A stretch of DNA of 64,000 nt, from contig OZ020523.1 of assembly GCA_963971425.1 (NCBI GenBank), positions 11,094,867 to 11,158,866 on the forward strand. The letters run 5' to 3'. Below the pieces are notes generated by a model, which saw nothing but the letters and a program-made list of their open reading frames with translations, was not told the origin of the DNA and searched no databases. Shown here piece after piece: positions 9,377 through 63,990 of the stretch (positions are counted from its first letter, which is position 1; each line of letters begins with the position of its first letter). The stretch is from Bryoerythrophyllum caledonicum (lineage: Eukaryota > Streptophyta > Bryopsida > Pottiales > Pottiaceae). A program made the position numbers and the translations under genes.

Positions 9377-9447
9377 TTCAGAGTAGAGGCGTGGCTTTTG
9401 TTCTTCACTTTTCTGCTTCGACGGTGCGATGCTCCATGGTTAGTATG

Positions 9448-13077: not shown

Positions 13078-13080
13078 TAA

Positions 13081-25814: not shown

Positions 25815-26192
25815 ATCGCCAGTCCTGGATTCTAAGGAACACGCTCCTCAGAACGTAAAATACAGCCTCTCGACTCCGCTACCTTCACATCCAGGCACCA
25901 CGTCCCTTCCTCATCGTAGCAACAAATAACGCCTCCTTCACTACAGCAAAGATCCGCTTCTTCTCTTCACTAGAATCTGCCAAGCGTGCCTTCAATAATT
26001 GTAGCAGACACACCGAAAACAGAGAAACGGTCGAGAACACGCAGTTGCGAAAATATCACCAATCATGAATCCTTCTCTCATAAAACAAGATCCAGAAAGT
26101 GTTTTCGCTTCCTGTATCGAGATTCGCTAGCAAATGTCCATCGCTCAAGAATCACAAAAACGAAAACACCGCACGTGTACAGAAAACCGCAC

Positions 26193-39202: not shown

Positions 39203-40106
39203 GCTCTTGTAATCAACGACGCTAGAATGTGAGCGGTGAGCAGTGAGCAGTGAGTAATGAGGAGGGAGGATAAAAATGGACATGAATAATCTAATTATAG
39301 GAATTTTCTATAAACAATATTTGGAATTTTCTAAAAAAGGTAAAATTTTGCAACCTATTACCGTGGTTTTCAAATGTCTTCTGTGATTTTTCACTTACAA
39401 ATTGGCTATGAAATTGCTTTGCATGAAAATAAATGTTGAATTTTAGGGACAAACCTAACCAAAATTTAATATGGAGTTGACTATTTCTCGTCATTAAATG
39501 GATGAATAAGTTTGGATGATATATTTCATGGATGGACAGAGTTTATGGATGAATGAAGTTTAGGGCATCCATTTAAAATCTCATCTAGTTTAACGAAAAT
39601 TTCTCTATGAGCAACATGAAATTTAATGGAAAACAAAAATTATATTAGTTTTAAATGCTTCATAATTCATCCCGCATAAAAAAATATACCTTTCAAGAGT
39701 GAAGAGGAATCACTAAACTACAAGATTTTAAAGAAGTTAAAAGAGGTTCTTCTATGCCAAAGAGCCTACTAGGCCCATTTTTATTTTATTTTTTTGTCTG
39801 ATTTTTTTGATTTTTTTTCCCGTTCCCAACAACAGGTAAAACATGTTTCAAAATTTTTTTCCTCAACAAATTCTACTATTTCTACAAGTGAGAGTCGTTG
39901 AACTTCACAAGTTTTTTGTGAAGCCCAAAAGGGTTCCTCGGTACCAAGGAGCCATTTTGGCCCTCCAAAGTTTTGTGTAGTTTCAAAGTTAAATTATAAA
40001 AGAGGCAATAACTTGCCATAACTACTATGACCAAAACAAAAAAACTTAGAGATTACTATTGCGGAGTAGGAGCTGTACTTCATTGAAACTAAGACTTGGT
40101 GCATGT

Positions 40107-40132
40107 ATGCCATATTTAACTATTTCTGGACT
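40107..40132 (+). repeat. Left terminal inverted repeat of the giant element
   Basis: Starts ATGCCATATTTAACTATTTC and ends in CTGGACT. It pairs with 58,529-58,554 with one mismatch (G for A near the inner end). Confidence 0.9.
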
Positions 40133-40629
40133 ATGAGGTGAATTTTGGACTAAGGACTAAAAGATAGATCCGGAGATGTGCCTCATAAAAGATAGTGAAG
40201 CATAAAAGTCGAGGAGTTTAGAGTACTATTCTAGCATTAAATGCATCACCAATGACACTTATGAAGGAAGAAATGGCTAGAGCGACCAAATTTGAATTTA
40301 GACAATACGTGAGTCCGCAGCATGCAGCCGGATATCTCCGGGTAAATATCAAGGTGGAATTCAGAAGAAGAACCGAGTCCTGAGAACAAAAATTGATTGA
40401 CATACTGTACATCACAAATGTGTGGTTGGGAAAAATGTGGTAGGGAAAACTGGGACAGAGCTGCGGACAGAAAATACTCGCAATTGATAGAACATGCAAT
40501 CAGATATCTCCGGATGAAATCAGAGTAAGAGTCCAATACTAAACTGTTTCATTATAAAAAAGTGTCACACAATAAATGAGGGGTGGCCGTTGCTAAGAGG
40601 CGCGTGTAATCTATGGAAAATCGATTCAA

Positions 40630-41085
40630 CTATTCTAATTTAAGTGCTTTACAGATGCCCTCTACCCGTCCAGTATGGTGCCTCCCATAAGTTAGATAAT
40701 GAACTATAGCCTTTCTAGGATTCTTGAATGGATCTAGATCTGCAACAACAACACATTTGGGCCACAAATAATGCCTTGTTCGAGGATTAAATGAAGCCTT
40801 CTTGAAGATGTGGAGAAACCTAACATAGCTGGGCCTTCGAGTCTGTTTGCTGGCATAGCAAAAAAGAATATCTGATAAGATGTCTGGGGGCAATAACACT
40901 TGGGCCGCCTCCATGAGCCTATCTGGACGCATAGTAGACCAGATCCCGACATTGAAATACCGCAGTAGTATTCGAATAACATCTGCCATGTCATCAAAGG
41001 AAGGCAGCTGCGTGGAACGGGATTTGGCCGAGTCAAGGACCTCGTCCGAGCAGAGAGGATCGCGGAGAGATATGATTATGACCTG
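40630..41085 (-). CDS. FCP1/HAD-like domain fragment of the giant element
   Basis: Follows an acceptor (TTCTTATTTGCAG) at about 41,086 and ends at TAG 40,630-40,632. It holds the second half of an FCP1-like fold: LLRYFNVGIWSTMRPDRLME, LLPPDILSDILFCYAS, then VVVADLDPFKNPRKA, which lines up with the VDDTPLKN motif of the neighbouring gene. The part with the nucleophilic DxD box is missing, and no convincing upstream exon was found at 41.1-41.4 kb. It may be the end of a longer transcript from the gene at 41.6 kb, or a degenerate duplicate. Confidence 0.5.
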   Translation of the reverse strand, partial: QVIIISLRDPLCSDEVLDSAKSRSTQLPSFDDMADVIRILLRYFNVGIWSTMRPDRLMEAAQVLLPPDILSDILFCYASKQTRRPSYVRFLHIFKKASFNPRTRHYLWPKCVVVADLDPFKNPRKAIVHYLTYGRHHTGRVEGICKALKLE

Positions 41086-41626
41086 CAAATAAGAAGGCAA
41101 GACCATCAAATTAGAAATAGAGCATTGGAATGAGGAGAAAATATGGTAGGAGGAGTTCAAGTGACACGAATTCGACCGGAGATCTCCGGGTGACCCTCCC
41201 AGACCAACGTTCGGCAGTCGAAATGGTCAGGAGAATACTTAGAAGTGATCACAGATATTGGAAGGTGAAGCTTGGAGGCGAGACACTAACAATAACAAAT
41301 AAAAAGAAGGACCTCAACAAATAATGTTACTGACAACAACATTTATCTTCAAAATTGAATGGTCGAAATCCCACAGACATCCTTGACTTAACATTTACAA
41401 AGCATAGAGTTTATAATATCCAGTATAATTCATTGTTCTAAGAAGCCGAAATTATGCCCTTCACCACGGACCGGGCCTCTTTGGAATTTTTGTCTATTGG
41501 ATCACTGGCAAACATCAATGGATGACGTCTAACAAAGTCGGGAACATCCTCATTTGACGCTAGCAGTCCGTAGAGCCATGGGAGAAAAATGGTGGACAAC
41601 CAGGTTTCTTTCGAATTCCTAGTCCA

Positions 41627-44600
41627 TCATGGCGGATGAACTGCGCTGAATGTATCATTAAGGACGTTCTTTAGTGGAGTATCGTCCACAAGCAAGACAT
41701 CCTTGGGAGACCTGGGCCACGCCTTGGTGTTATAAATTGTCAGGTCCTCAAGGAAAATTGGCTTCGACGGATGGAATGGGAGCGTATATGATGTTTTTGT
41801 GCAATGGGCCTGCGTCAGGATTGTGACGCCTTCCGGAATGACAGCACCTTTCTTGCGCAACTCCTTGATAATATCCACAATATTCTTTTCCACCACACTG
41901 CTCCAGAATGAGACAGTAGCCTTCTCTCCCACGAAGTTCAGGAGTTCAGTGGAACCAGACCTTACTTTGATGACTCTCGGTTGTCCCTGTTTGAATTCCC
42001 CCATGTGCACAAGAACTCCATTTAAGTCAAACACGACATGATAAACCCGATTGGATGTTACCTGATCCTCGGTTGGAGGCTCTCGGACGATCGTAGTAGG
42101 CTTCGTCGAACCTGAACCCAAAATAGGAGTACGTAGGCTGAGATGAGGAAGTTGTTCAGCAAAGTGAAATTTCAATTATACATATAGAAGTGTTCCGCAC
42201 TCACAATCCAGAATTGTTCGATGGAAGAATGAGCACTATATAGATGATGGCACATAAGTATGAATGTACATATTAGGCACCTGGGATAGTAGGTGGAGTA
42301 TCCCTAGAAGTCTGAGCTACACCAGCGACTTGAGCAGTCTGTGCGGGGTTTCTGTCACCGACATCCTTCGACTGTGTTGATCCTACGGACCCCTGAATAG
42401 CAGTAACGAAGTGGTAAGAATAAGGTCAGCATCGAATGAACTGTCCTTAGAACAATGAAGAAGGTTTGATGGACAAGTAACTATTCACCTTATCTTTCTG
42501 GGCCCTTGTCCGAATTGTAGGTGGAGGAGGAGGAGCTTTCGCCGTAGGATTCTTCGCGATTGCTTTTTTCTTCTCTTTTTGAGCCAACTGCCCGTGGCTC
42601 CGCGGAGGGCTGCGTAGAGGGCTCATAGCATGTAATTCACGCAATGTCTGCTACGCCGACGCCTCATCCATCGTTTGATCGGTGTCACGCAACGTCAAGT
42701 CTTCGGCACTCTTGCACACAACCTCCACTTCTGGACGCGTCCTCGAAAGGTCGGCCAGCGGGAGATCTCCGGGTGCTCTTTGGGAAACGTCAAAGTCCAG
42801 GCGATCAGACATTGCCGTGTCATCGTCCCGATCAGGCGAAGGAGAACGTGGCATGCCGGAATGCCAACTGGTTTCCTTTTCAGAAGTACCGAGTCTAGCG
42901 TCCGGAGTAGAGTTGCTTCTCGAACTAGGCGAGGCTTGCCTGATAGGAAGAGGTGGTTCATCAACGTCTATCTGTATGGGGCGGATTGGGGTGCCCGCAC
43001 CGACGATCCGCGCGGCAATGGCCAAGGACTGGAGTCCAATGTTGGGTGCCGCTGATGAACTCAGTTCATACCGCACATCAACTTCAATCATCGTGGCATC
43101 AGGTGTCTGCATCACATTGACGAAGTCAGTGTGAAAAACATTAGGATGCAATACAAATGAGAACAGTATGATACACCCGGAGATCTCCGGTTCAAAGTGG
43201 TCTATGTCTACCGGGTGAACTATATCTGAGCAAGGCGATGAGAAATATGAGCCCTAAAATATGCAGGGCATCCTAAACGTATGAACAGCCGGAGATCTCC
43301 GGGTCATGAAGTTTTCTTAGTTGTTATACCTCGCCGCTGTAGTTCATCCTCGACATTGCCCGTGTTAGAACACCAGCGCCTGGAGTTGACCCAGTGATGG
43401 CAGTCTCCTCTGACTCCTCTGCAGCGGCGTCGGGTACGTCGGCTAAGAGATTCATGTGGTACTTGAATATTTCTTCTGCGCAGGATTCTGCCTTGAGTTT
43501 GGCATCTTCGCTGCTCACAATCTCGAGGACCCGCGCATCGTGAGTCTGCAAGATAAAGCCTTCGTAAGGCGTCATCCAAAACATATAACTGAAGACGGAC
43601 CACAAATCTATGACGTTGAGGTGCTTGGGAAGGATGTCCTGCTTACCAATCCGAGGTATGTTAAATGTGGTCCACCATGGACATTGACGACCACCATATC
43701 CTCTCTAATGAACCCCGTGAACAACAAATCAAGGACCGAGATCCTCAGCTCTGGGACACCGATTTGCTTCCAGCGCTGGATGGTTTCTGGATGTTGAGCA
43801 GCTGAATAGAAGGCCTCCATTTTGTCTGCGTGGACTTTGTAGAGCCTCTTGAATGACTGAGCAGGCGTCTCACTCGAGTTGTATTCATATAGGAATACAC
43901 AATACACTGCCTCCTCGACCCCGATTACTGGGGTCGGAAACCAATCACCTGGGTGGGGGAAGTAGTAGACCACATGCGTCGCCCACAATTTCACCTTGCC
44001 CCTGGACTCTCTCTGCCGAAGATTGATGTACCTCTTCAATTCAACAAATCCCGCGACATCGGTGATAAGGACGGACGGTGATCTGACCCTTGTCCTCCCG
44101 TCCTTCGTGTCCACTTCCAGATGGTCGAAAATGGTTCTGAAGTCCAACGCATCCAGGACCTGTGCACGGCATATGTCGTCTTTCACGCGATAGAGGAAAA
44201 AGAAGTAAAAGTGAGGGTCATTGACGTTACGCCACTCCTGAATGTCCGGCATGATAAGTACTTCGGCGATCTCGCCCCTTCTCTCTGGCATAACCCTGCA
44301 GGTGTATTTGGAGTCGAACAGGGACTTGTCATCCGTGGGTGTGGCCTCGGCAGCATCCTCAACGATGTGTTGACTCCAGATGGACACAAGGACGTCCGGG
44401 GTGGGGTCGGTTTCCTTGTTGATCGCCTTTAGTTGACCCTCAAGCCAAGCTTTACCCTTGGCAGAGTGAATAGCGGCGTCCACCCAGGACTCGAGCTGAA
44501 CCCGTCCAATATCCCACTCTGCCGCAAAGGCGTCCCACTGCTCCTTCGTGTAAGGGACGAAGTCAGCAGCCTTCGAGGGAAGGGGGTGCGACTTGTAATT

Positions 44601-47600
44601 TAACATGAGTTCATTCTTCATAGCCTGGATTCTCTTCTCCCTCTTCGCCGCTTTCTCGAGTGTCTCGGCCTGCCCTTTCATAGTACCTTGGTTTGCCGCT
44701 TTGGAGGACTTCACATAGACCTTCTTCGCGAGCACTAACTCCGCGAGGTAGTCAAGGTCTTCAGCGCGCATTTTATAGAGTGGCTTGAAGTCGTTCTACA
44801 CCAAAGGCTTCCGCTTCAGCTTAGCTGGATCGCCAGTCTTCCCGTTCGAGTCTGGTAGGAGTCCAGCGACAAACATCCTATCGATTACGATCCACTTCTG
44901 GACCACCGCGTCATCCATCTCGAATAGAAGAGGGACCTTCGCGTCTTTTGGATCAGTTTTGCCAAGGTGAGTGAAAACCGTCGGCACCACTTGCCGTTGG
45001 AACGTCTGCAATAATATATAACTCAGTGTGTGAGCACCCGGAGATCTCCGGTAGATTGGATTTGTTGCTTGAAGAATGAGCTCATTGATGAAATTGAAAT
45101 ATATTCAGGTGGAGGATGTAAGCTTACCGAGAATTCGTCAGATTGTGGATGACCATAGAGTTGGGGGGCGGGTTTTCCAAACTCAAACTACTTCACTCTG
45201 CACGTTTGCAGCTGCTCGGTAAAACTCTGCTCCTTCCGCAGACCCGTCAGATCTTGGTTCAGAGCGCGCGAGAGTTGTAGCAGGGTCATGTCTTTGGGGT
45301 TTGGTTTGGTCCAAACCGGGATGATAGAGAAGTGCGATATTTCTTCGAGCGTCCACGTTGATGGCAGTTCGTGTGATAAGATCTTGTGCGCCTCCACAGT
45401 ATACTGACCACCAATAATGTAAAAGTGTGTCGTGTCCCTAAGGCAGTCCTCCTTCGTCGGTTTGGTCGCGAAGAACTCCACCTTAGTTCCGTCAAGTTTA
45501 TTCTTCAGTGGCAAGACTCGAATGTGAATCTCTGGAGCCGTGGCCTTCGAGGACGCACGAACTGCATTGATGATTCCTTCGAGCCGTTCTTTCTGGATGC
45601 CCCTGTACACTAATCCTCCAGGGGGGGCCCTATGTAGATTATTGAAATGAACGAGCTTCACGACATCTTTCTTCGTGACAGGGTCTTCTATCGTCAAAGG
45701 CTTATTCTTGAGTATGTATATGTTCTTGAACGCGTCGTCGAGAATCTTGCCAATTGCTTCAACTTCAGTCCTCTTCATTTTGGCGAGGTCAGCCTGTGTG
45801 AAGTTCAGGCGCTTTTCGATCGCCAGGCCAGGCTCATCGGCCTTCGCTTTCTTTCTCTTCTCTGCCCGCGACGAGGAACCTGGGGTCGAAGTTTTCAAGG
45901 TTGTCTTGCGTTTTCTTCCCGGGGTTGATTGTGGTGTCGGGGACAGAATGGGTGTCGGGTCTGGAACGGGCTTTTGGGACTTCTCTTGTGCTTCTGCCAT
46001 CCACTTCTACTGCTCATTAACGTACGCCGGGCTCCATGTATCAGTCGTGGGAGGGCTGAATAAGAAGTTTTCATTCTGACATGTCTCCACCATCTCATCC
46101 GAAATCTTAGATGCCTCCAGAATCAAGCCGTATATGAGAGGCTCGGTGGATGAGTCCACGTTCTCCTGGACGACAAGGAGGCAGACCTCGTCGTCAAGAC
46201 CCTGCATCTCTAGAACCTCGAGTCCAATGTCGGGGTGTCCCCGTTTCCCAATCCGAAGTTGGGGGACGTATTTCCAGGCTTCTTCAGAGGTTTTCAAGAG
46301 CTTCATTCCCCACTGGCTAATGCTCTCTCGGCATTTGTAGACGTAGCCAACATTGTGAATTCCTCTGTAGACAAACTCAGGGAGCCAGAACTCTACAAAC
46401 GCCCCAAGCTTCCCGGGACGACTTTCAGTCGGAAGTGTGGTTGTCCACGAATCCCTGCAAGATGAGTTCGAAAGAACACAAACGCAATTAGAAATCACTG
46501 CAATTGACCGGTAACCTATGGAGAGTCCGTCACTCAAAACCGGCTGTATTCCTAGGGATGGATGATAGAAATCGAGCTTCTAAATCATTTTATTACTGCC
46601 CAAGCTAGGGGAGGTCTTCGCACAATTATCAGATCTACAGACACTTGACTCATCTTAAATCGCTTGAAGTATCTTGCATGAGCTCAGCCGGAGATCTCCG
46701 GTTCGTCAGGTTCGATCTCTAGTCGGCGTGAGGGGGTATCGAAACATGCTTGAAACGTCCCGAGATCTACAGCTCTCTGTCGGATTGTGAGTAGCAATGG
46801 CGTTTGTTTTCGTTTAATTCCATTGCGAAAGTATCCGGAGATCTCCGGCTGATTTGCGGATGTCGTGTGCATTCGTCCAGGAACGATTCGATACGTATCA
46901 GTCGGAGCCAATTCTGTTCTGAACCGGAGATCTCCGGATGATGACCAGAATGTCGAGTTTCACGATATTCTCATCTTCCTACGCGCGTATATGCACTACT
47001 TCGTAACGTCCGGAGATTTCCGGATATTTTTGAGATTTTTTAAATCGTTGGAAAATATGTCAAGATTCATCATTCCTCGACATTATCCGGAGATCTCCGG
47101 CTGATTATTGGAACTCCGTATTCCGTTCGGGATGCAACCGGAGATCTCCAGCTGATGCAAGTACGGATTAACATTGCACTAATCGCAACTTACCATTACG
47201 CGTATATTCACATTCATTCACAGAGAAGTTTGACATACTACTCTGGAAGTTTTACATACTCAAAATTCATGTTTTAAATTACAAACAGACTGAGACGTAT
47301 CAAATGCTCACACAATGCTTTCAATAACCGACCTTACATACAGGAAATTAAATCTACAAATGTTCCGATGGAACGCCAAATGTGACGTTTGCACATGGAT
47401 TACTCTTGTCATTAAATCGGACCGGACTCGAAGGACTCAGTATGGACAAGCACATTCTAACGTTCGTACAATACCATAATCACACGCAAATTCATGAATT
47501 GAAACACACTTCTGTTCATGGGACATCAAAAATAAAATCGACTATAGCCTAACAGATATCTGAATTCTAGTACTCATCCTCTGAGGTTTCTCTTCATTAT

Positions 47601-47774
47601 TTAAGTGTACTTTGTTGTCATACACCCCTAGGAATCAAATGAACAAACTTGAATCACAATAAAATATAGAATCCACACACAGTCGCTCGGACACAGTGGA
47701 AACAGTTCAATGTTGTGGACTTACCGGTCTCCTTTCCATGAAGTCTCACTCGACGTTCCAGCTCCAGTCGCCAT
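41627..47774 (-). CDS. Large element-encoded protein ending in an FCP1/HAD phosphatase-like domain
   Basis: Six exons on the minus strand join with matching phases: 47,725-47,774; 45,128-46,454; 43,330-45,005; 42,489-43,106; 42,281-42,392; 41,627-42,111, about 1,420 codons. The first ~1,100 residues match no family I know; a basic Pro/Ser/Lys-rich stretch (GRKRKTTLKTST; AEKRKKAKADE) could be a nuclear signal, and a proline run (APPPPPTI) precedes the C-terminus. The end is an FCP1/NLI-type HAD domain: VVFDLNGVLVH replaces the usual DLDETL, so the second Asp is Asn, and LLVDDTPLKNVLN is intact. Four in-frame TAG codons (46,007-46,009; 45,188-45,190; 44,796-44,798; 42,651-42,653), one single-base frameshift near 43,680 and a TGA at 41,627-41,629 interrupt it. 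After that TGA the frame stays open to 41,438 with family-like sequence (LSTIFLPWLYGLL; VPDFVRRHP). Confidence 0.72.
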
Positions 47775-48870
47775 TTTCCAACCTCCTCGAGGAACTCCTC
47801 GGAATCGAAGCAAATTCACAGCTCTGGATGACATCAACGTTCAACAACTCAGCTTCACAAACTCTACAATTTTTCAGATGCCCTAGAATTTCAGGTCCAC
47901 ATCTGATTGACAAGATTTCCGTGAAATAAATTTCAACACTGCTCATTTACGGATAACATGCTCATTTACACGCATAACATGCATAACATGCTCATTTCCG
48001 GACCTTCTATACTGAATGCACTGAATACCAGAACCCTATACCCTAAGCCCTACAATTCCGCTTCAACGTCTAACAACATCAGAATTACTCGACTCTCTTG
48101 AACCCTAATGGCGCTTACCGAACCCTACACCTGCCCCAGTGCCGATTCTAAGCAGTCCTGGGAAACTTCGATATTTGATGACAGTGAATTTTAATCTGTG
48201 AGACAGTACATACCTCTTCACTGACCGATTCGGCGCACCCGTTCCTCGTGGTCGTTCGTGAAGATGCCACCCTCGACCGCAACGTCGTTTCAACTTCGCT
48301 CGTGAACCGAGGCGCTCGCTAAATTTAAAAACCTATTTCAGTATCTCTATTCCAGTCCTGCTCTCCGACCTTCAGTCCATATCAAGACAACCTCTCGACG
48401 ATATGCTCAATGTCCCTGACTTTTATCAACACGCACCTCGCACACCGACAGCCTCTCACAGCGCACACCGCCCTAACCTAATGCGTTGACGCCTACTGCG
48501 CAAACCACGAAAAAAACCCCTCCCGCCACTTCCGCTCACTACCTACGACATTACAAAGACAACACCCATAAAAAACAAGAAAGGTTTGATGCTTGGAGTT
48601 CCCCTAACCCGATAGGGACAAGCTGGACGGCTCAAGGGCTGTGACGGCTCATGATGACAGTGGGTGAACTTAAAAATCAGCTCTAATCACGTACATATAC
48701 AACTTGTACATTTCACAATCATGAATTGTCAATGTCGTGAGCATGCGTGACAAGACGTATTGATACCCGGATTCCTGGGTATTACATATGGCTACAGTAG
48801 ATACTCGGGTTCACCAGGTATTAGAGTAACCATCATACTTGAATTTAAAAGGTCATAAGTGAATAAGCTT
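47775..48870. other. Central non-coding spacer of the giant element
   Basis: Upstream of the minus-strand gene. It has no copy of the 14 bp palindrome and no convincing gene. A repeated ACATGCTCATTTAC phrase occurs near 47,940-47,990. It probably holds the promoter of the large minus-strand gene. Confidence 0.5.
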
Positions 48871-48879
48871 AATCTCCCT

Positions 48880-49800
48880 CTCCGTTACTCTCCCTCCCTT
48901 CTTTCCCTCACTTGTTTTTCTTATTTATGTTTTGCTCTCCCCTCCTTCTCCGTCTCCATCTCATTTTTAATCTTGATTCTAGTAATTTTTAGACTCCCCG
49001 TGATTTCAATAATTATACATTCTTAAATTAACCTACTACTCTAAAAATAAATCCCGCACTCTTCCTCGCTTACTCTCCCTCCCTATCCCTTATTCTCCCT
49101 CACTTCCTTACTCTCCCTCTCCATCTCTTTTCAAATTTTGACTTTTTTTTTTATTCCCTAAATTCCCCTAGTGGCATATTCTAAAAATATAAACTACTTT
49201 AAAATAAATCCCTCCCTTACTCTCCTTCTCTTACTCTCCCTCTCTGCCTAATTCTCCCTTGCTTACTCTCCCTCCTACTTGTTTTTAATTTATTATACTC
49301 TTACTCTCCTCTCCTTCTCCATCTCCATCACTATTTTCCTTTTGAAGTTTACTTTTTTGGATTTTCCTTCTTTCAATAAATTCACATTCTAAAATTAAAT
49401 AACTACTCTCAAAAACAATCCCGCACTCTTCCTCGCTTACTCTCCCTCTCTATCCCTTATTCTCCCTCACTTCCTTACTCTCCCTCTCCATCTCTTTTCT
49501 AATTTTGACTTTTTTTTTATTCCCTAAATTCCCCTAGTGGCATATTCTAAAAATATAAACTACTTAAAAATAAATCCCTCCCTTACTCTCACTCTCTTAC
49601 TCTCCTTCTCAATTATTGTCCTTCCCATACTCTCCCTCTCCCTTGATTTTAATTTATTTTACTTTTAATTACCCCTCCTACTCAATATCCATCCTTGGTT
49701 ATTAATATTGTACTATTGTAATAGTAAAATTATTTTTTCTATTCTATTCTATTGCATTATTAAATCATGCATAGGTTTCAAAGAGATATATACTTTGTTG
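48880..49800. repeat. CT-rich tandem DNA, ~370 bp period
   Basis: Many TTACTCTCCCTC-type units. A larger block (CCCGCACTCTTCCTCGCTTA ... TTTTTATTCCCTAAATTCCC) occurs at about 49,053-49,220 and again at 49,423-49,590. No gene. It appears to be part of foreign DNA inserted in the giant element. Confidence 0.75.
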
Positions 49801-49809
49801 TTACTTTTC

Positions 49810-50095
49810 TTCTTAATTATTTTGTGATATTAAAACTACATTAATGGTTGAACTAATGCGTTGCAAAGCAAGCCCCAACTCCTAGCCATAGTACTAAAAT
49901 CATAATTTGCGGAATAAACCACGAAGTGAACTATCGCGTAGTCAACCATGCTGTGAACTACAAAAACGCTACTTGAACCGCGGTGTCAACTGTACAGTGA
50001 ATCATTCCACCTTTCATTTTTTAGTATTTTTAAATATTAAAAATACATAAAAATGGTTGGGCTAATGCATTGCAAAGCAAGGGCCAACAGCTAGT
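49810..50095 (+). mobile_element. Helitron-like 3' ends
   Basis: Two successive ends, ATGCGTTGCAAAGCAAGCCC...CCTAGC near 49,855-49,886 and ATGCATTGCAAAGCAAGGGC...GCTAGTC near 50,065-50,095, have the short hairpin plus CTAG layout. They match the 2,300-2,560 segment. No helicase gene is present. Confidence 0.5.
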
Positions 50096-50401
50096 CTACT
50101 CTAAAATTATATCCATTATCCTCCCTCTCTTCTTTATTCTCCCTCTAACTAAATTATAATGTATCAAAGTCTTAAATAGTTAAAGTTCAATTATCGCTAA
50201 ATTTTCTTACACGCTATTGAATCCAATTTTTTTTAAAGTTATAGTTATTGATAAATTTAAGGTTATAGTTCATAGTATCAATAAATTTTTAATTTATAGA
50301 TTTAAAGGTGATGTAAGCCCTCGACCTTCATGAACCGAGAACCTTCCACGGTGAACCGTAAACCGTGAACCCTTAACCTTCAACCCCAAACCGTGAAGTA
50401 G

Positions 50402-50590
50402 AAACCCTAAACCCTAAACCCTAAACCCTAAACTGTAAATAGTGAACCGTGAACTTTAAACCGTAAACCCTAAACCCTAAACCCTAAACTGTAAATAGTG
50501 AACCGTGAACTTTAAACCATAAACCCTAAACCTAGACCCTAGACCCTAGACCCTAGACCCTAGATCCTAAACCCCTAAACCCTAAAACCG
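50402..50590 (+). repeat. Interstitial telomere-like repeats
   Basis: Runs of CCCTAAA (plant telomere type) alternate with CTGTAAATAGTGAACCGTGA-like segments and then a CCTAGA variant run. Flanking sequence from about 50,330 has further AACCGTGAA-type degenerate units. It is too short and degenerate for a chromosome end; it looks like a telomere-derived or filler insertion. Confidence 0.85.
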
Positions 50591-50802
50591 TGATGAACAA
50601 TCCTGCCTTACCACAGAAGCTGTACCCGTTTTCATAGGACCAGGTTGCTGTACTTTTAAAAGCATCTGCTCAGTTATATATTTCTGCACGTATCTTCAAA
50701 AGTAGACAAATAGCTTCTGTCGAACTAGGAAATTTTGGAGATATTTCACATTGGAAACGAATGTCGACGTTCTACTTGTGTCCTGTAGTGTCAGTTGAAC
50801 AA

Positions 50803-51899
50803 CACTACACTAAAAGTTTCATTTAGTGTAGTGGACACTAAATACAAACCCATACACTAATTGTCAACTACGTAATTTGTGTAGTGACAAAATAGTACAC
50901 TAAATGTGAACTACTACACTATTTGTGAACTTTTGTAAACTTGATTGGAATATTAACTATTTTACTCGTGCACGTTTAGTGTATTGAAAGTAGAAGAGAA
51001 TTATGTGTTCTCAAAGGTGAAGAAGAGAAAAAATAAAACTCACAAACAAAAAATTGGAAAAACAACAATTGCGAAAAAATAATAATTAGGAAAAAACAAC
51101 AATTTGGGAAAACAACAAATAGGTAAAAACAACATTTTTGCGAAAACAACAATTAGGAAAAAACATTTAGGAAAAAACAACATTTTAAAAAAAAACAAGA
51201 ACTATGAAAAAACATCAATTCGGGGAAAAAAGACAACTTACCATTTGAAAAGGTAAACTTTTGTAAAAATAAGCTTTCCCAAATGTGAACATTTGAAAAA
51301 GTAAAGATTTGAAAAAGTAAACGTTTGAAAAAGTGAACTTTTGAAATAATTTACTTTTGAAAAAGTGAACTTTTGAAAACGTGAACTATTTCAAAAGTTC
51401 ACTATTTCAAAGTAAACTTGGAAGAAAGTAAATTTTTGAAAAAGTTAAGTTTTGAAAAAGTAAGGTTTTGAAAAAGTAAAGTTTTGAAAACGTTATTGTA
51501 TGGTAAAGTAATTTTTTGAAAAAGTAAATGTTTGGAAAAAGTAATTGTATGGTAAAGTAAAGTTTTGAAAAAGTAAATGTTTGGTAAAAGTAATTGTATG
51601 GTAAAGTAAAGTTTTGAAAAAGTTAATGTTTGGAAAAGTAAATTTTGTAAAAGTTAACTTTTTCAGAAGTAAAACTTGAAAAAGTAATATCTTGTAAAAG
51701 TAAGCTTAAAAAATATAAATTTCCATGAAGTGTACTCCGATAAAGTTATCATTGATAAAGTAAATTTTGATCGAATTAACTATTTAGAATGTACACTTAT
51801 TTGCAATTAGTACACTATTTGTCAACTTGTTTGCAATTAAAGTACAAAGGTAAGTACACTATTCGTGCCATTACACTAAATGAAACTTTTAGTGTAGTG
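50803..51899. mobile_element. CACTA-like non-autonomous element
   Basis: Begins CACTACACTAAAAGTTTCAT and ends with its reverse complement. The inverted repeat continues through TTTAGTGTA(G/A)TGG for about 32 bases, so each end is itself a hairpin. Same family as 16,077-17,304. No clear target duplication. The 1,097 bp interior is non-coding. Confidence 0.75.
51240..51700. repeat. AT-rich short repeats inside the CACTA-like element
   Basis: Many loose copies of GTAAACTTTTGAAAAAGT / GTAAAGTTTTGAAAAAGT with period about 15-30 bases. Non-coding. Confidence 0.8.
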
Positions 51900-53154
51900 G
51901 GCAGCAGTGGGCTGACTGTTTTCCATGCGTAGGATATAATTTCATTTATAATGGTGAGTACAAGAAGAATAATACGATTACATTATACTTAGTCCATGAC
52001 GTGATACGGCCCTTGTAATCACAAAAGACACACCATGGGGCATACTTCATCTTCCGTTTTCTAATTTGCAGCACTTTGGAAACTAGATGGTTTCCTTACA
52101 ATACGGTCATCCCATGAGTACGAGCCTTTCATTTATCATGAGTGGAATGTGGCCTCGGTCGTGGGCACGTCGAAGAATGCGCACTATCATAATGGTGTAC
52201 AGCAGTTACTATGATAGAGTATGCATGCCCAAGATTCGTTTCAAATTTGAGCGCTTGAATTTTCCCACCAGGAGGTGATGAGGAGGTTGATAAGAGTATC
52301 CTTCAACTCAGCTCTCATCTTTTTTTGCTCTAGAGGTTTGGGATACTGTGGAAGCTGAGCCAGTTAGTAAGAGTGTTTGAGTGCTCGACATCGTGCTAGA
52401 ATTCTGCAGGGAAACAATTAGACAGTAGGTATTCCAGGAGTGTTAGGATTGTATCCTCGTTTAATTTCATATCGGCATTCAATTTGATAGGATTGGTGTA
52501 GATTGTGTTTCTCTCTGCCCTCAAAGTCGACCGGAAGCTGTCGTGTAGTGATTCAGTAACTAAATCGTCTCCTAATTAAGAAATAGATCCGGAGCGCCTA
52601 ATATATTTCGACTCGAGAAATAGGATGACGTGACTGATCGGGGTGTGAATCCGAACAGTTCTCAGGGATTGGCGACTGAATCTTTCTGCCACACCCTCGA
52701 ATATTCCGTACGGCCGATGTTTCGATAACGACATTGATGCGAACCGGAGATCTCCGACTGTTCTAGCCATGACATTCTGGATTCTACCATGCTCACTTGC
52801 AGGCCACGGCAACTATCCCAAAAACATCTGGCTGTCCCATTTTACGAGCCCAGGGTTCCCGGAGATCTCCGGCTATTCAAGGGCGAGATGATCATTGGAA
52901 GATATCACGGCAGCGTGGTTCGGATGAACCGGAGATCTCCGATAAGATTCGAATAGAACTTCTAGCTTCACCCTTCACATCCTCACTTACACGAGGAATC
53001 GACGTTGCTGATGAATATCGAGTCATCCGGAGATCTCCTGCTAGACACACCCTACGATTTTGACCATGGTTTTTCAGTTCTAATCCACGTCCACTTATTC
53101 ATGTTCTAAGGCCATCAACCACCAGCCGAACATCGACCGACGGAGGCCGGAAGA
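51900..53154. other. Spacer upstream of the DUF7869-like gene
   Basis: Giant-element DNA resuming after the nested insertions. It holds four palindrome copies (52,744; 52,859; 52,929; 53,027) close together about 100-400 bases upstream of the gene start, a position suited to promoter control. No gene seen. Confidence 0.55.
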
Positions 53155-56100
53155 ATGTCTGACTCTGATTGGTGGGAGAGTGACTCGGACAATCTTGCCA
53201 TGGTCGCAGCTCAGTGCCCCGATTTCGGTCGAGCGGATTCTATCGAAGAAGATGATCCATTCGAGGAGTCTACTGGAAGGTCGGAGGTTTTGTAGTCAGG
53301 ATTGTCCGTGAACCTCTTTAGGCCAGGCTCAAGCAAAATTGGAGAAGCATCAATTGTCGAGGTTCACCCAGTTGGTCAATGGCTTGGAGTTGACATACCA
53401 GTCGGTTCCAGTGAGTTCGTATTACTCAGACCAACGGCCATTACGTCCTTGGCGGAAGAATTTCCACTCATTCCGTTGCAACGCGGATATTGTTCACTTG
53501 TTCAAACACTTCGGCGGACGGTCCTGTGGAGAAGGGCGGATGTGAAGATTCCAACCGGAGATATCCGGTCCGACGAGTCCCCTTTCGTTCGACGTGAGAG
53601 ATGGGTTGGACTTGAAGTGTAGCGATTGGACGGGAATCTGTTAGTACTCTGCTCTGGTAGAATCATCGCGTCGTTAGCAGGGGATCACTTCCGAAGTGGA
53701 TGCTTGGGAGAAGATAACATTGGTGTAACTGTCCTCGACATTTTTGTGGGGGATACGGAGAGAATTATGAGTCATGAATCGTGGCCCATTCTTGAATGTT
53801 GTTTTCCTTCCGGGAGGTCTTTAAAAAGCACAATAGATCATTTCGCATCCCTGCCTTTACAACCTGATTCTGGTGCTTATTTGGGGGGTCGTGCAAAGGA
53901 GCCTTACCGCTTTATTTTTCGACAGCAAGACCTCAACAAGAAAGAATCCTTCTACACCAAGAGGACTATGGATGATGAAATTCGCAAAGTCAGCTCGGAA
54001 AGGTGCTGTCCCAGACGATGCTGCCAATATTTTCAACAATCCTAGACTCTTTCTGTTAGACAGAAATTCTATGACAAATCCTTTGAAGACCAAAAGGAGT
54101 ATGCGATCTCGGTAGGCGGGCAGTTTCACTCAATTGACGGGGACCGGAAGAGAAAGTACGTCACTCTATTAGGAACGGAGGTCTGCTCCGTTCCATGGTA
54201 CATGATCCATGGAATTTGGAAGTCCACGTTTCACTCGTACATCGCACATTTCAGTAGAGGAATCATCAATGCAACTCACGGTAACAAGGGCATCAAGCGC
54301 CCACGGCTTGCCACTATACAAGCAATGGGGTCAATGACGTCGATTATTAATGACAACGCGGATCAGATGCCTCACCAAATGCGTAGTGTCGGGAATGGTC
54401 GGATTGACACTCTCAAGTATCTTCCTGCGGAAAACAACTGGAAGCAAATTCGAGCCAGCGTCAATGTTGTACGTTATTTGTCCCTGCATAATGATTTGGA
54501 TTAGAACTCTCTTTCTTCAGTCGACCGAAGTCCTAGTTAGTGAACCGGAGATCTCCGGCTGTGTCATCGTTGACATGAAATGACCTTCATTTGCTATTCT
54601 CTATATTTCGCATTGTCTGCTGGATTGTCCTTTTGAAATACTCTTCTCACTTTAATTTTTTTTCATCTTGCAGACAAACGACTCCTACGGTCTTCCTCCT
54701 GTAAGTCAGTCCACAGTTAGTAGGGTAAGAAAGGAATTCTTTGAGAATGTTGCTATTAAGCCATCTGGAAGCACCTTCGCAAAATGCAGTACTTGCGATG
54801 AATTCAATCAGTTCTTACTGACGACTCCAAAGGGAACGCCCGCTTACGAGCTATTCTATAGCAACAGGAAGGCTCACTTGAATCACCAGCAATCTTGCCC
54901 GAAGCTCTACGCGACATGGAGAGAGGAGTCGAAGGCGAAGCCGCTGACCTTTCTTTGTGTCATTCACGACAAGAGGGACACTGCGAAGACTGCCCTTCCT
55001 CTCATGTGGAGGACTACGAAGGCGACATCTGGTCTCGGACAGCTTCCCATGAATGTCACTGGAATGGTGGCTCACGGTCATGTCGACGGAGCGTATGCTC
55101 ACTATGCTCCTGCTTTATGGCCTGGAGATTCGAACGCCACCATCTCCTCTCTGGCAAAACTTTTTTGGCGGCTTGAGGGAGCACCTTTACATGAGACACG
55201 CGTGCTCTTCGAGCACCCACCTCCAAACTCGATGTTCGCGGCGCTCATGAGGGGAAAGAGCAGGTGCGTGGACGCTTTAGAGCCCGTGGAGCCGAGTGCT
55301 TTTAAGGGACCGAAACCTTTGCCACCGAAATTGTTCCTACAGCTTGACAACTCAGTGAAGGATAACAAGAACCAATACTTGATGGCATTCTTATCACTGC
55401 TAACTGCTCGAGGTGTTTTCAAGGAGATACAGGTTGGCTTCTTGGTAGTCGGACATACGCATGAAGATATTGATGCTTACTTTAGTCATCTCTCGAAAGA
55501 ACTGAAGAAAAGCAGTACATATATTCTAGCAGATTTGATGAAGGCATTCATGAAGTCACAGAAACTAGCCTTCATGCCGGAAGTTATCCAAGAGGTCGCC
55601 GACTTCAAATCGTATGTCGATGGCTATCTATACAGCGGGGCGGGACGTCTGGTGGGACTTAGTGATATGCATCTTTTCAAGTTCTTCGTTGACAATGACG
55701 GTGTTCCGGTCATGAAGTTCAAAAAATCTGCCATTGACGCAGAGTGGTTATCCATGAACAGAGAGCCGATAAAACTTTGGAAGGTAAATGACTTCAGACG
55801 TCCCATGCTTCCAACAGGATCTCCCAAGCCCGTTCCATTCAAGCCTATATGGGGTAATGAGGAGCAGAGCCTTGTTGGAAACCAAGATGTTGCCAGAGAC
55901 AAGGCTAGAAAAGCGACGGAGAACAAAAACTTTATAAAGACGGGGCTTCGGAAGTACGTTGACTACTGGGCGTCCGGAATGACTAAGTGCGCAGGGTACG
56001 CGGACTCTATTCGCCCATATCTGCAGTACTGGAAGGATGTCATCGACGAGCTTGACAAGCCACTTCCCCAGACGCCTTCCGAACTCGAAGAGGGATTCTG

Positions 56101-56515
56101 GCCTGCCCATGATTGGAGAGGCCCTCATGAGGGAGGTGAAAATCTTCAAGGACTGCTTCCACAACCAGAGGATGTGACTCCCGAGGATGAGGTTCTTGAG
56201 CCTTACTGCGGACCCGCTAATGAAGCCCCCAAGTCCACATTTAATCCTTGGCGTGACATTCGTCATGGCTCCTGGGTTTTAGTAAGACCTAGTGATCCTG
56301 ATATCTATCCTGTCTGGCAGGGAAGAGCAGTTTCGGAGGTCGTCAAGGAAGATGGTAATGTCAACTACGGGAAATTCGTCGTTAAGTATTGGGAGCCTGA
56401 TAACAAGCAGAAGAATCTGAAGAGGAAGTACCAGGACTGTTGGGAAGCCACTTGGGTTGCGGACCAAGAGAAGTCTGTTTGGTGTCATGTGAGTTCCGTG
56501 TTGTTTGCGACCTAG
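53155..56515 (+). CDS. DUF7869-like protein, candidate transposase of the giant element
   Basis: Exon 1 (53,155-54,474, 440 codons) and exon 2 (54,674-56,515) join at phase 0 to give ~1,053 codons. Exon 1 ends with HGIWKSTFHSYIAHF, typical of this family just before the core. Exon 2 has a CSTCDEF Cys pair, then an RNase H-like pattern with acidic residues: Asp in VIHDKRDTAKTALP (54,968), Asp in FLQLDNSVKDNKNQY (55,346) and Glu/Asp in VGHTHEDIDAYF (55,463-55,477). I infer a DDE-type catalytic triad. Three in-frame TAG codons lie in exon 1 (53,293-53,295; 53,620-53,622; 54,043-54,045) and no TAA or TGA. A GTGAGT donor at 56,491 with an acceptor at 56,768 could replace the last residues by a third exon ending in TGA at 56,841. 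It is the only enzyme-like candidate on the element for moving it. Confidence 0.75.
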
Positions 56516-57495
56516 TCAAGCAAAGTTAATCAACTTACGAGGTCCATTCCACGGAAAATGAAAGAAGCAACGCTTGTGAACTTAGAGAAAGCGAATGCCA
56601 TTGATCCCTAATACGTTTATCAGTCCCTCTACCTATAATTCAGTTCTGTGAAACTCTCTTCGTGAAAAATCTCGAAGAGTTGCTACGTTCACACCGAAGA
56701 GCACCGGAGATCTCCGGCTGTGGGCGCTTTTATTTATCTGGGCCCCAGTTCGGCATCCTTTCTTTCAGCTCTCGCTAGTCATCGTGAAGGGGACCGAAAT
56801 TGTGCTCTTTCATTCAATGAAATTTTGGTACATTGAGGAGTGACAGAGTTATTGTTGACCCAATTCTGCTAGCGGTATATTTTCGGACCCTCACGTCTTT
56901 CTGAAAGCTTACCGGAGATCTCCGGCTATGGAAGTATATTTTGTGGACCTAAGGATGTTCGTATATTGCCAAGTTTTAGTTGGTGAGATCTAGCCGGAGA
57001 TGTCCGGATAGGAGATTCACATCCCCATTCTCGTCAATGGGGTTCCAATTTTGAGCTTTCCAATTTTGAGCTTACCTAGTTGTTCTGAATAGTATTGAAT
57101 CATATCCGGAGATCTTCTGTGACTTCGATAATGCATTTCAATTTACGATGGATGTTTCAACAATGTATCAGAGACCTTTTGGTTATTCCCGTGGTTGTTT
57201 CCTTCATAGATTTTTGACATGCCACATCTAAAATGATAATACGCGGTCAATTACACACTTCATATCAGTTGTACAAGGACCTTCTTATGATTGATGTGAT
57301 GCTAATGGTTGGCGGCGGAGATTGTACTTCGCACATCATGTTACGACAGCACGCTTGACGCGTCGCCTCCCATGTTGGTCATTCGTGTCTATGGAAGCTA
57401 CCTTTATTTCTATCAGTCTCGGTGTTATGGCGACTTATATCAATGACTCATCCTTTACCTACGCTCGAGACCTGTAATTAATGGGTTGGTAGGGA

Positions 57496-57508
57496 GGATA
57501 ATATAAGA
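57496..57508 (+). promoter_or_regulatory. TATA-like box of the small acidic gene
   Basis: GGATAATATAAG lies about 90 bases upstream of the ATG at 57,595, a normal TATA distance once a short 5' UTR is allowed. Confidence 0.5.
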
Positions 57509-57594
57509 AAGGGTTCGGGTCTGCACCAATTCATATGTTTTGTCTTTCAACTTGTTAGTTTTGTTAGTCGATAGCCAGGGTCGAGAGAGAGAAG

Positions 57595-58032
57595 ATGGCT
57601 TTGGCAAGTAGGAAGAGGGAGAGGGAAGAGTCTGATTCGGTAGACCGTAGAGTTTCTCAAAGGATTGTGAGCGACGCTCAGGGTTCGGAGAAGGGACGAG
57701 TGCTACGCTTTCAAGTTGGGTACACAGGGGCGATAGGTTCCATTCGGCGTGCTCGGGACGAACTGGAGGAGGACGCTCAGAGCAAGTATGCTCCAGAGGA
57801 GGAGGACGGCAGCGACTATGAAGCGGAGGACGAGAACGAGGTCGACTGTGATGAAGATGAGACGGTCTTCGGAGGTCGCTTGGTTGAAGATGAGGAGGAG
57901 GATGACTTCCGGTATGTTGACAAGGAGGAATCTTCTTCGGAGGGCGGCTGCAGCCCATTTCAAACTGGTTGTGACACAGGGTCTGATGTTGATTCGGACA
58001 TGTACGCGCCGGCGCACTGGAAAGATCTTTAG
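57595..58032 (+). CDS. Small acidic protein of the giant element
   Basis: A single open frame of 145 residues starting MALASRKREREESDS. A short basic start is followed by long Glu/Asp-rich stretches (EEEDGSDYEAEDENEVDCDED; EDEEEDD) and a Ser/Asp tail. The composition resembles histone-binding or activator proteins, but I recognise no family. A TATA-like box lies upstream. It sits between copies of the palindrome near the right end of the element. The opposite strand also has a 210 codon proline-rich frame (57,455-58,087), which I take to be the antisense shadow of the acidic codons. Confidence 0.6.
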   Translation: MALASRKREREESDSVDRRVSQRIVSDAQGSEKGRVLRFQVGYTGAIGSIRRARDELEEDAQSKYAPEEEDGSDYEAEDENEVDCDEDETVFGGRLVEDEEEDDFRYVDKEESSSEGGCSPFQTGCDTGSDVDSDMYAPAHWKDL

Positions 58033-58528
58033 AAGTCTTCAGAGGTAGTGCCAGGATAGGTTTTGCTCTTTCATGCAGGAGTTTCACTGAGACTAGTCAT
58101 TGCTGTCTCGTAGAGTTGATCAAGTATGTGATGGTCTTGTAAACGGACTCCCTTCCGAAAAAGCAATTTTGTTTTTGAAAATTGACCATCTGTTTTCTGC
58201 TTTCCCTACTTTCGATCGGATATCTCCGGCTGTTTTAACGGCATCCATGAAATGTCAATGCCTTCTGCTCTAAATTCATTTTCTCTAAATTCTTCCCCTA
58301 AATACTCCCTGGGAAGAAAATCGAGTCAGTACAATTTCTATCGATAATACTGTACCTCGCCTTGAGCAAGGTTCTATCACTGTAATCGATTCGTATCGTC
58401 TGACTGAAATCATCCGGAGATATCCGGCTGAATGACTAAGTTTATTTTTATTTGTATCCCTCTCAATCTATTGGGTTCCACAATTCTACTACACTGAAAT
58501 CCTTCTTCCTTATTTCTGGACTTTGCAA

Positions 58529-58554
58529 AGTCTAGAAATAGTTAAATATGGCAT
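58529..58554 (-). repeat. Right terminal inverted repeat of the giant element
   Basis: Reverse complement of 40,107-40,132 with one mismatch. Just inside lies a perfect-looking hairpin, TTTCTGGACTTTGCAAAGTC then TAGAAA (58,512-58,538), absent from the left end. Confidence 0.9.
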
Positions 58555-58969
58555 ATGTATTTACTTGTCATCTTCCAGGTTTGCCTTACACAAGAATCTG
58601 TATACATAATACAAACTATGTTTGCAATTCACCTACGCTTTGCGTTGGCTTAATGCTCCACTGCGATGAAGATTATAATGGAAGCAAAATTTTAGTGTTC
58701 AAAATTACATAAAATTTTGGAGTGCCAAATGGGCACTTTGGTACCAAGGTGCCATTTTTCCCCTCACTCAAATTGTAGTGGAAGCAAGAATTGTAAAATT
58801 ATGTAAAAATGTAGTGAAAACAAGAATTTTTGTATTCAAATATACGGAGAAGTTTGAAGTGCCAAATGGGCAATTTGAATAACCCCTTAAGGAGAATTTT
58901 TCTTAGTGGACGATTATTTTTAATTTCTTTTTTTTGATAAGTTTGTATTTTTGTTTTGTTTCCCTTGGT

Positions 58970-59225
58970 TTCACCCTTAGGGCACTCCTCAATATCGAGG
59001 AGCCCCTCTGCTATTTTTTTTTTGAATTTTTGATTTTTTTGAATTTTTGAATTTTTTTTTGTTTTTATTTTGATTTCGCCCTTATGGCCCTCTTCGGTAT
59101 TGAAGAACCGTTCGGCTTGTTTTTTTGTTTTCTTTTTTTATTTTTTATTTTTTTGGTTTCGCCCTTAGGGCCCTCCTCGATACCGAGGAGCCCCTTGGCT
59201 GGTTTTTTTTTCTTTTTTTTTCTTT
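58970..59225. repeat. Hairpin tandem repeats, inverted copy of 31.9 kb array
   Basis: Four units of T-run plus CCCTTAGGGC(A/C)CTCCTC(A/G)ATA(T/C)CGAGGAG. They match the 31,866-32,225 array in reverse orientation and lie at the same place in the host element. Confidence 0.85.
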
Positions 59226-59539
59226 TTTTTACTAATATTTTAGAAGTTGCTATATTTTTTCTAACTATAAGCTGAGCAGTCATTCATCTACATTCATCTA
59301 TCTACATTCATCCAAATATCCTCCAAATAGTTTGTTTTCGGGTTTTTTAATCCAACTTTCTCCCATTTTGATCTTTTTTCATACCACAGAAATAGGTCTC
59401 AATGTAAAATTGTTTCTTGTAAATTACCCCAAATCTATGGTTATAGGGTGCCCAACTGAAAAAAATAGATTGCTTACTACTCACTGCTCACCGCTCACTG
59501 CTCACTGCTCACATTCTAGCATTCCTGCTCTTGTAATCT

Positions 59540-62809: not shown

Positions 62810-63990
62810 GCAATGATTGTAAAATAGGCACCTTGGTATCAAAGTGCCCATATGGAGCACTATTCTTACTTGTAGTTGCATTTTTTCACAGAAAAGAAAT
62901 CCTACCATTTTTCACACAATAGAAATCAATGAACTTTACAAATATTCAATGAGGGGGAAATAGCACCTCGGTACCAAAGTATCCATTTGGCACTCCAAAC
63001 TTCTACTAAAATTCTTGTCTCTACTACAAATATACATAATTTTAGTGAGGAGAAAAAATGGCACCTCGGTAACAAAGTGCAAATTAGTACTAAAGAGTAG
63101 TTCCGATGGGAAATTTTTTGGTTTTTCCTCCATGTCCTTCGATTCTTGAATCTACATTGTAGAGGTTGTTCTTCATGAGCCTTCTTAGAACTGAGGAGTA
63201 GTCTCCATTGTGTTTCTTTTGGGTTTTTCCTCCGTGCCATTCTTAGTTTCCTAAACTCTACACTTTATTGGTTGTATCTTATGAGCCTCGTCGGTACCAA
63301 GAAGCTCTTCCCATTAGTGCCGATGAGCCTATTTAGGTCCTCGCTTATAAGTGCATAAAGCAAGATATGACCTCACACTGAAATAAAGAGCAGAAAACCA
63401 AGAGCCCAGAGAACGGCCCCTCGATGCCAAGAAGCCTATTTAAATTGCACATGAAGAATGAAAAAACATGATTTTGGCTAGTCATGAAGTGAAGAATAAA
63501 AAACAAATAGCCCAAGCAACGGCACCTCGGTACCGAGGTGCCTATTTAGGTTGCACTTGAAAAGTGCAAAACCATGATTTGGGCAAGAAGCAAAGTAGAG
63601 ATTAAAAACAAAATAGCCTAGAGAATCGCTCCTCGGTACCAAGGAGCCTATTTCTATTGCAAATAGAGAGCGTGAACTAGTAAATGTGCAAGATTTAAGT
63701 TGAAAACATGAAAAACGCCCAAAAAACCGCATTTAGTCTAAAACATTGAGAATACACATTATAGAACCGCACCATAATGCTGAGGAGTCTATCAGCCTAC
63801 GTCCAACAGAATGCAGAACTTAGAAACAAGCAATCCACCTGAGTGTATATATTAGGTTATGAGAAAAACATGAGGAAAGAACAAAAAAAAGGATTCTATG
63901 GAGACTGCTCCTAGGTGCGGAGGAGGCTTATATGATACAACGACCAAAGTGTAGATATTAGGATCCTAAGAAAGACATGGTGAAAAAACC
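62810..63990. repeat. Repeat family built on GGTACC palindromes
   Basis: About eight copies of GCACCTCGGTACC(A/G)AGGTGCC-like inverted repeats. From about 63,360 they fall into ~115-120 bp units, each followed by TATTTAGGTTGCACTTGAA-type sequence. The motif resembles the hairpins of the 1.9 kb element (GGTACCAAGGTGCC at about 58,740). The window ends inside it. Confidence 0.75.

Follow-up and report, generated by a model that had tools for sequence, protein, structure and literature searches.

The window analyzed here is a 64,000-nt stretch of the Bryoerythrophyllum caledonicum genome (GenBank assembly GCA_963971425.1, contig OZ020523.1, positions 11,094,867 to 11,158,866, forward strand). 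At 40107-58554 it contains a multi-copy class II DNA transposon (subclass 1, with terminal inverted repeats, TIRs) of ∼18.4 kb, which carries two large genes: gene B on the plus strand, encoding a DUF7869 protein, and gene A on the minus strand, encoding a protein with a C-terminal NIF/FCP1 domain. This element belongs to a lineage of giant transposons, of which two families in the same genome are well documented (the window family and F2) and a third (F3) was partly read. The transposon itself is of a known kind; the dispersed palindromes that differ from family to family are unreported as far as the literature was searched.

Sequence comparison within the window gave exact ends for the insertion (40107-58554, 18,448 bp). 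The left TIR (40107-40132, plus strand, 26 bp) matches the right TIR (58529-58554, minus strand) in inverted orientation, with one mismatch at position 22 (G/A), and ATGT is found on both sides, at 40103-40106 and, flanking the right TIR, at 58555-58558. The empty site was located in a second, inverted copy of the host repeat (the sister copy), which a first-pass annotation of the window had delimited as 31546-33511 and of which 31560-33477 was aligned. In the window self-comparison, sister positions 32602-33477 aligned in inverted orientation to 40108-39229 (90.8% identity), and 31560-32025 and 31937-32607 aligned to 59527-59056 and 59227-58555, respectively. The alignments from the two sides of the element overlap around the four bases 32604-32607, where ATGT is present once. 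From the window only, the target-site duplication (TSD) can be read as 4-bp ATGT or as 2-bp TG; because ten other copies settle this ambiguity, a 4-bp TSD was assigned. It is perfect in 10 of the 11 copies, the window copy included, and has one mismatch in the remaining copy; the TSD sequences vary among copies, and the target sites are AT-rich. In 9 of the 10 other copies the TIR shows no mismatch across 26 bp. The element thus has the inverted ends, the TSD of fixed length, the empty site and the multiple copies of a TIR DNA transposon, and the boundaries, 26-bp termini, ATGT duplication and empty site given by the first-pass annotation were borne out, with the G/A mismatch as a small addition.

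The 437-Mb assembly was searched with the first 20 bases of the terminus (up to 2 mismatches), using the reversed word as a control. This yielded 333 matches (173 + 160), against 1 + 0 for the control. Among the first 100 matches listed, 31 of 40 neighbouring plus/minus end pairs lay 17-23 kb apart, and 12 of the 40 fell at 18.2-18.6 kb. The ten other copies were fetched whole and were picked for near-standard length, so that their range (18,228-18,526 bp) gives no measure of size variation. They are 90.5-94.2% identical to the window copy (mean of BLAST pieces, repeat pieces included) and collinear with it along the whole length, as one to several alignment pieces. One caution applies to the family as such: the copies were retrieved through the terminus, so common ends alone prove little, and the family is accepted as real because the TSDs are independent and the interior is common. 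An insertion of a chromosomal segment by chance, or an assembly artefact, has the rarity of elements of this size in its favour and nothing else; given eleven copies with common interiors and independent TSDs, this reading was rejected as extremely improbable. The terminus search named beforehand as a source of support therefore returned several elements of ∼18 kb with common ends, 4-bp TSDs and the gene set described below, and the opposite outcome, namely no further copies or genes that vary independently of the ends, is excluded for the copies read.

The repeat family that the first-pass annotation had ascribed to the element was identified as a palindrome, CCGGAGATCTCCGG, whose sites were counted with up to 2 mismatches. 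All 24 sites in the window lie inside the element and none outside (0.04 expected by chance). Each of the 11 copies holds 23-25 sites at nearly identical positions, with one or two sites absent here and there, and the 1 kb of flanking sequence read for each copy has none. The assembly holds 2,718 exact sites, counted at all genome positions in or outside elements, as compared with 3 for the reversed word. The first of the 24 is a subterminal variant, CCGGATATCTCCGG (40328-40341), and two further subterminal sites are located at the right end (58216-58427). A cluster of six (46688-47151) lies upstream of the first exon identified for gene A, and a cluster of four (52744-53040) upstream of gene B. 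The model exons make up 43% of the element, and 22 of the 24 palindromes lie outside them; the centre reads GATC in 18 of the 24.

The window-family palindromes were shown to be more conserved than their surroundings. At non-exonic sites of the 11 copies, a set enlarged by an additional weak site close to the left end, divergence was 4.9% in palindromes versus 6.7% in flanks, and 1 of 300 random sets was as low. In the same comparison, A positions diverged by 1.1% versus 5.0%, T positions by 0.7% versus 4.5%, and CpG positions by 9.2% versus 11.4%. A second test, in which sites were found in one copy and divergence was measured among the others (exonic flanks included), gave A/T divergences of 1.0% inside versus 4.6% outside with the window copy as reference, and 0.8% versus 4.1% with another copy (L023) as reference; none of 200 random sets was as low in either case.

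When a distant DUF7869 relative was used as the query, at least 44 matches were obtained (43 of 4,738 candidates scored), 39 of which lay in open frames 937 or 956 codons long. The 956-codon family (F2) was shown to be a second complete giant family, and the 937-codon family (F3) was partly read; both have related ends, the same gene A/B layout and dispersed palindromes of their own. Two F2 copies were fetched (22,813 and 22,327 bp), with main blocks 99.4-99.8% identical and 4-bp TSDs in both (AAAA and AGGA). The F2 end, AACACCATATTCATTATATTGGGAG, has CCATATT in common with the window end and gave 1,260 + 1,263 matches in the assembly, against 0 for the control; on C1 below 31.2 Mb, all four F2 open reading frames (ORFs) among those listed are enclosed by F2 ends 22.8-33.8 kb apart. 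The open 956-codon DUF7869 frame is on the plus strand. The minus strand carries the gene A homologue (E 6.9e-8 by hhalign between the window family and F2) and, downstream of it, an FCP1 frame (6.6e-19). For the F2 palindrome, TGCATATTCAGCTCGASTCGAGCTGAATATGCA, inner half-sites (up to 2 substitutions) were counted 23 and 19 times in the two copies, and none was found in ∼7 kb of flank per copy; the centre reads GASTC in 11 of the 23, and 8 sites in a tandem array read GACCC. In F3, of which 15 kb of one copy was read with one end seen (AACGCCATATTCATTAAAATGAGAC), a DUF7869 frame is present together with a homologue of gene A (6e-35 and 4e-59). Near-copies of the F3 palindrome, around TATCCTCGASTCGAGGATA, number nine in one stretch, with at most 5 of 23 positions changed, and seven in the second, with at most 4 of 19 changed; the centre is GASTC in 10 of these 16. 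Neither the window palindrome nor the F2 palindrome was found in the F3 stretches read. Gene A lies opposite gene B in all three families.

A control was made by counting whichever perfect palindrome recurs most often in a sequence. The count was 12 for the window family, 13 for F2 and 6 for F3, and it was 5 for the right flank of the F2 copy on C4 (L032). Three stretches of the window that lie beyond the element, the second F2 flank and all 20 shuffled sequences gave a count of 1 each. Many copies of a short protein-binding word in an element or replicon are known from the subterminal TnpA sites of Spm/En and from bacterial ParB-parS; unlike these, the palindromes described here are long, run through most of 18-23 kb and differ by family.

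Several further repeats were noted in and around these elements. The L032 flank carries six copies of another palindrome, CCTCGGATCCGAGG, at ∼8180-9893. A minus-strand frame at a shorter distance from the F2 copy contains EIVMDLTASTG, which looks methyltransferase-like by eye; this flank may represent a fourth family. F2 ends also occur as closely spaced inverted pairs, 14 pairs spanning 162-163 bp and 9 spanning 237 bp by hand count among the first 100 matches listed (for example, C1:463965-464127 and C1:6874732-6874968), which are probably miniature inverted-repeat transposable elements mobilised by the young F2 family. The host repeat has its own recurring near-palindrome around CTCGGTACCGAG (31869-32241, 58929-59231 and 63394-63661), and is possibly a non-autonomous element related to a palindrome-bearing family. 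Inside the window element, a palindrome-free, repeat-rich core (47200-52700) is also found in other copies with variable length. Within it, 32-bp inverted arms starting CACTACACTAAA lie 1.1 kb apart (50803-51899) and look CACTA-like by eye; the alignment runs through this stretch without a break in 6 of the 10 fetched copies and is in pieces in the other 4. A degenerate telomere-like AACCCTA array was seen at 50354-50586.

Gene B (53155-56614, plus strand) was modelled by hand with two exons (53155-54468 and 54674-56614), giving 1,083 codons with four internal TAG in the window copy. The DUF7869 match (PF25273) was obtained at E 4.4e-45 with Pfam, in agreement with the DUF7869-like protein of the first-pass annotation. 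A total of 174 relatives were found, and those named among the 120 listed are from Physcomitrium, Ceratodon and Riccia; DUF7869 was matched in all 65 sequences scanned (the window and 64 relatives picked from the 120). In the 65-sequence alignment, the aspartates of QLDN and GHTHEDID (D227, D267 and D269) are conserved; the aspartate of IHDK (D105) is near-invariant in a 15-sequence alignment and is off the 90% list of the 65-sequence alignment. Transposases of the Sola superfamily have a DDD catalytic triad, and gene B probably encodes the transposase. The DUF7869 profile gave no match to Protein Data Bank (PDB) chains at E up to 10, and the Pfam scan of gene B matched no transposase family besides DUF7869; among the 65 DUF7869 sequences, four matched Transposase_23 (TNP1), at a best E of 0.043. 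DUF7869 goes unnamed in the open-licence literature searched.

Gene A (41438-46454, minus strand) was modelled by hand with six exons (46454-45197, 45005-43647, 43545-43330, 43106-42489, 42392-42281 and 42111-41438) in consistent phases. The model, which lacks the gene's first exon (not found), is one frame of 1,411 codons with four internal stops in the window copy, and it was mapped in the ten other copies. Part of its exon 1 (45197-46006, minus strand) holds a YIIGGQHTVEA core, reading YIIGGQYTVEA in the window copy, that is ParB-like by motif only; the wider core VYRG...IIGGQHTVEA...NQ is common to five database proteins (exon-1 relatives P0121-P0125). The NIF/FCP1 domain (PF03031) was found at 41627-42111 (minus strand) with 2.2e-8 in Pfam and 3.7e-10 in a further scan. 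The FCP1-domain protein noted earlier is therefore genuine; the claim of two large spliced genes fits the exon models, but the FCP1 domain proved to form the C terminus of a single long gene on the minus strand. Its motif reads DLNG in gene A of the window family and F2, in place of the expected DLD, which would have a consequence for the FCP1 domain. The small acidic gene of the first-pass annotation corresponds to gene C (57595-58032, plus strand), an ORF of 145 aa with no internal stop or frameshift in 9 of the 11 copies. A 176-aa ORF (40630-41160, minus strand) looks vaguely HAD-like by eye and has no Pfam match.

Other searches returned little. The 871-aa query of gene A exons 1 and 2 had no match among 8,000 candidates scored, and comparison of gene A pieces with PDB gave none save weak histone H2B matches to a basic stretch. 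No match was obtained by tblastn against phages and plasmids or in Rfam, nothing useful in the viral contigs searched, and weak matches only in PHROGs. DUF6551 matched two of six gene A sequences (best E 0.029), too weakly to be used, and the F2 exon-2 ORF had only sub-cut-off matches, such as Perilipin_2 at E 0.0016.

EnSpm/CACTA elements have CACTA termini, a 2-3 bp TSD and a Tnp2-type transposase; this class was rejected on the termini (ATGCC...), the 4-bp TSD and the absence of a Tnp2-type Pfam family in gene B. Maverick/Polinton elements carry a DNA polymerase and integrase, and Helitrons a Rep-helicase; both were rejected, as no such domain was found in the nine ORFs scanned with Pfam. 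Placement was made towards the Sola1-type giants because of the 4-bp TSD and the opposite-strand accessory gene, and by this analogy Sola1 membership is likely. The first-pass statement that the gene set matches no nameable plant superfamily holds only in part, with Sola1-type giants known in Ectocarpus and Sola1 in Physcomitrella. The available text of PMC12477816 describes giant Sola-1, KDZ and EnSpm elements in algae, among them Sola1-1_Ec32 of Ectocarpus (21.5 kb), in which a 1,104-aa gene for a ParB-like plus methyltransferase protein lies opposite to the transposase; similar proteins are cited there from green and red algae. Its authors suggest that accessory proteins of this ParB-like type may attach to and modify the transposon that encodes them; no target site for this is named in the part available, and the word stem ‘palindrom’ does not occur in the main text. 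Sola1-1_Ec32 appears to be the closest published relative: it is likewise a giant DNA transposon with an opposite-strand accessory product of more than 1,000 aa, there ParB-like and proposed to bind its own transposon. Unlike the present element, its second domain is a recognised methyltransferase, whereas here none was recognised by profile and a C-terminal FCP1/NIF domain is found instead. The algal giant KDZ and EnSpm elements of the same source share the size class and the accessory genes, and differ in that gene B has DUF7869 only and the TSD is 4 bp. A table in PMC9033089 lists Sola1 in Physcomitrella, and 4-bp, AT-rich TSDs are given for Sola2 in the part of PMC3627910 available; ‘Sola’ does not occur in the main texts of PMC7466625 and PMC6431247. 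The Sola superfamily (reported by Bao et al., 2009) likewise has a 4-bp TSD, AT-rich targets and conserved aspartates in the putative transposase. No family-specific dispersed palindromes in such elements were found in the open-licence literature near the topic, little of the search having been aimed at palindromes.

The first-pass annotation missed four in-frame stops in each large gene of the window copy (7 TAG, 1 TGA and 0 TAA over genes A and B). Internal stops occur in gene A of 11 of 11 copies and in gene B of 10 of 11, and in gene C one copy has a stop and one other a frameshift. In the length-conserved copies, 38 TAG, 9 TGA and 4 TAA stops were counted. Each copy has its own set, and some copies are frameshifted; half of the eight window stops (codon 149 of gene A and codons 156, 297 and 1052 of gene B) are also present in one or two further copies out of ten, and none is present in all, recurrence being counted on stops as listed, up to 8 per gene per copy. 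Two stop sites are W in the closest relatives. Singleton changes in exons are C-to-T or its complement in 263 of 473 cases for gene A (5 length-conserved copies of 11) and in 251 of 414 for gene B (8 copies of 11), with singleton C-to-T rates at CG and CHG 2.2-2.8 times that at CHH. A reassigned TAG codon was rejected on the copy-specific stops, the frameshifts, the TGA and TAA also present, the W at two sites and the C-to-T bias. The pattern fits silencing by CG/CHG methylation followed by deamination; the window-family copies would have been methylated and then have decayed.

On balance, the whole proposal, in which gene B is the transposase, probably of the Sola1 group, and an element protein reads the palindrome of its own family, is favoured with modest confidence from the sequences compared. 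Gene B, as a DDD-type transposase, would bind the TIRs and move the element by cut-and-paste. The product of gene A (the most likely candidate) or another element protein would bind the palindromes of its own family, coating or marking the element along its length and telling its own DNA from that of the host, so as to join two distant ends or to counter silencing by the host through effects on transcription and chromatin; recruitment or mimicry of the RNA polymerase II machinery is a possible role of the FCP1-like domain. Several results weigh against the proposal. Two of the 24 palindromes lie within exons, and G/C positions are only mildly conserved in the second test (6.3% versus 8.7% with the window copy as reference, 6.6% versus 8.0% with L023). 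The ParB reading of gene A draws on motif resemblance and the published Ectocarpus case, and the profile test performed here gave it no support: the comparison scored 15.2, a value reached by 4 of 30 shuffled controls, the hhalign comparison with ParB gave 15.9 for the reversed control versus 15.1, and Pfam returned no ParBc match. No methyltransferase family was found in the pieces scanned (the window exon-2 ORF at E up to 1, the F2 exon-2 ORF with Pfam and NCBIfam at E up to 10, and the neighbouring frame), and inspection by eye showed no DPPY-type catalytic motif. Moreover, the palindrome might be a site for gene B, gene C or a factor of the host rather than for gene A.

A less probable alternative is a conventional giant transposon of the Sola1 type with passenger accessory genes, its palindromes being host-factor sites, such as promoter or enhancer sites, that each family happened to amplify: 22 of the 24 palindromes are intronic or intergenic, clusters lie upstream of genes A and B, and accessory genes are frequent in giant elements according to the available text of PMC12477816; yet the palindromes differ between families in one host, which is unexpected for a single shared host factor, and they also occur near both ends and in gene A introns. 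Selfish intra-element repeats, that is, hairpins spread by conversion or micro-transposition with no recognition role, would account for the near-identical copies and for the 34-bp tandem array of F2, which holds 8 of 23 and 4 of 19 palindromes and also counts against the recognition proposal. Such an origin is improbable in view of the nearly constant positions in the 11 window-family copies, the A/T positions that are ∼4.5-6 times less divergent than flanks, and the avoidance of exons by 22 of 24 sites. A similarly low probability was given to gene A being a ParB-methyltransferase relative, as in Ectocarpus Sola1-1, that marks its own adenines or cytosines at the palindrome. The domain pair described in PMC12477816, as far as its text is available, speaks for it, as do the GDLVFSAFGGSKF and GERVFGVYCGSKF motifs of gene A in F2 and F3 and the EIVMDLTASTG of the neighbouring frame, which resemble methyltransferase motif I by eye. 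So do the GATC and GASTC centres (18/24 in the window, 11/23 in F2 and 10/16 in F3), of a type that recalls adenine-methylation sites. Against it stand the lack of any Pfam or NCBIfam methyltransferase match, a catalytic motif that is not visible (the domain may be dead) and a centre that varies, as in the GACCC array sites of F2, so that the resemblance is partial.

Elsewhere in the window, inverted repeat pieces at 10220-13677 and 26189-28579, up to 92.5% identical and spanning ∼18 kb, are possibly another large inverted-repeat element. A 347-codon Tc1/mariner-like frame (19148-20191, minus strand) and gypsy-like pol pieces (5892-8317, minus strand) were recognised by eye.

Returning to the proposal of self-recognition, the lineage may, by analogy with ParB-parS or with self-methylation, be one of giant plant transposons with a self-recognition code, in which the palindromes of each family are read by a co-diverging element protein that coats or marks ∼20 kb of DNA for end pairing or against silencing; this wider interpretation is advanced tentatively. 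Candidate target sites are visible, many per element, family-specific and, in the window family, constrained, which makes the proposal made for Ectocarpus directly testable. The finding bears on how a plant DNA transposon of 18-23 kb joins its distant ends or resists silencing.

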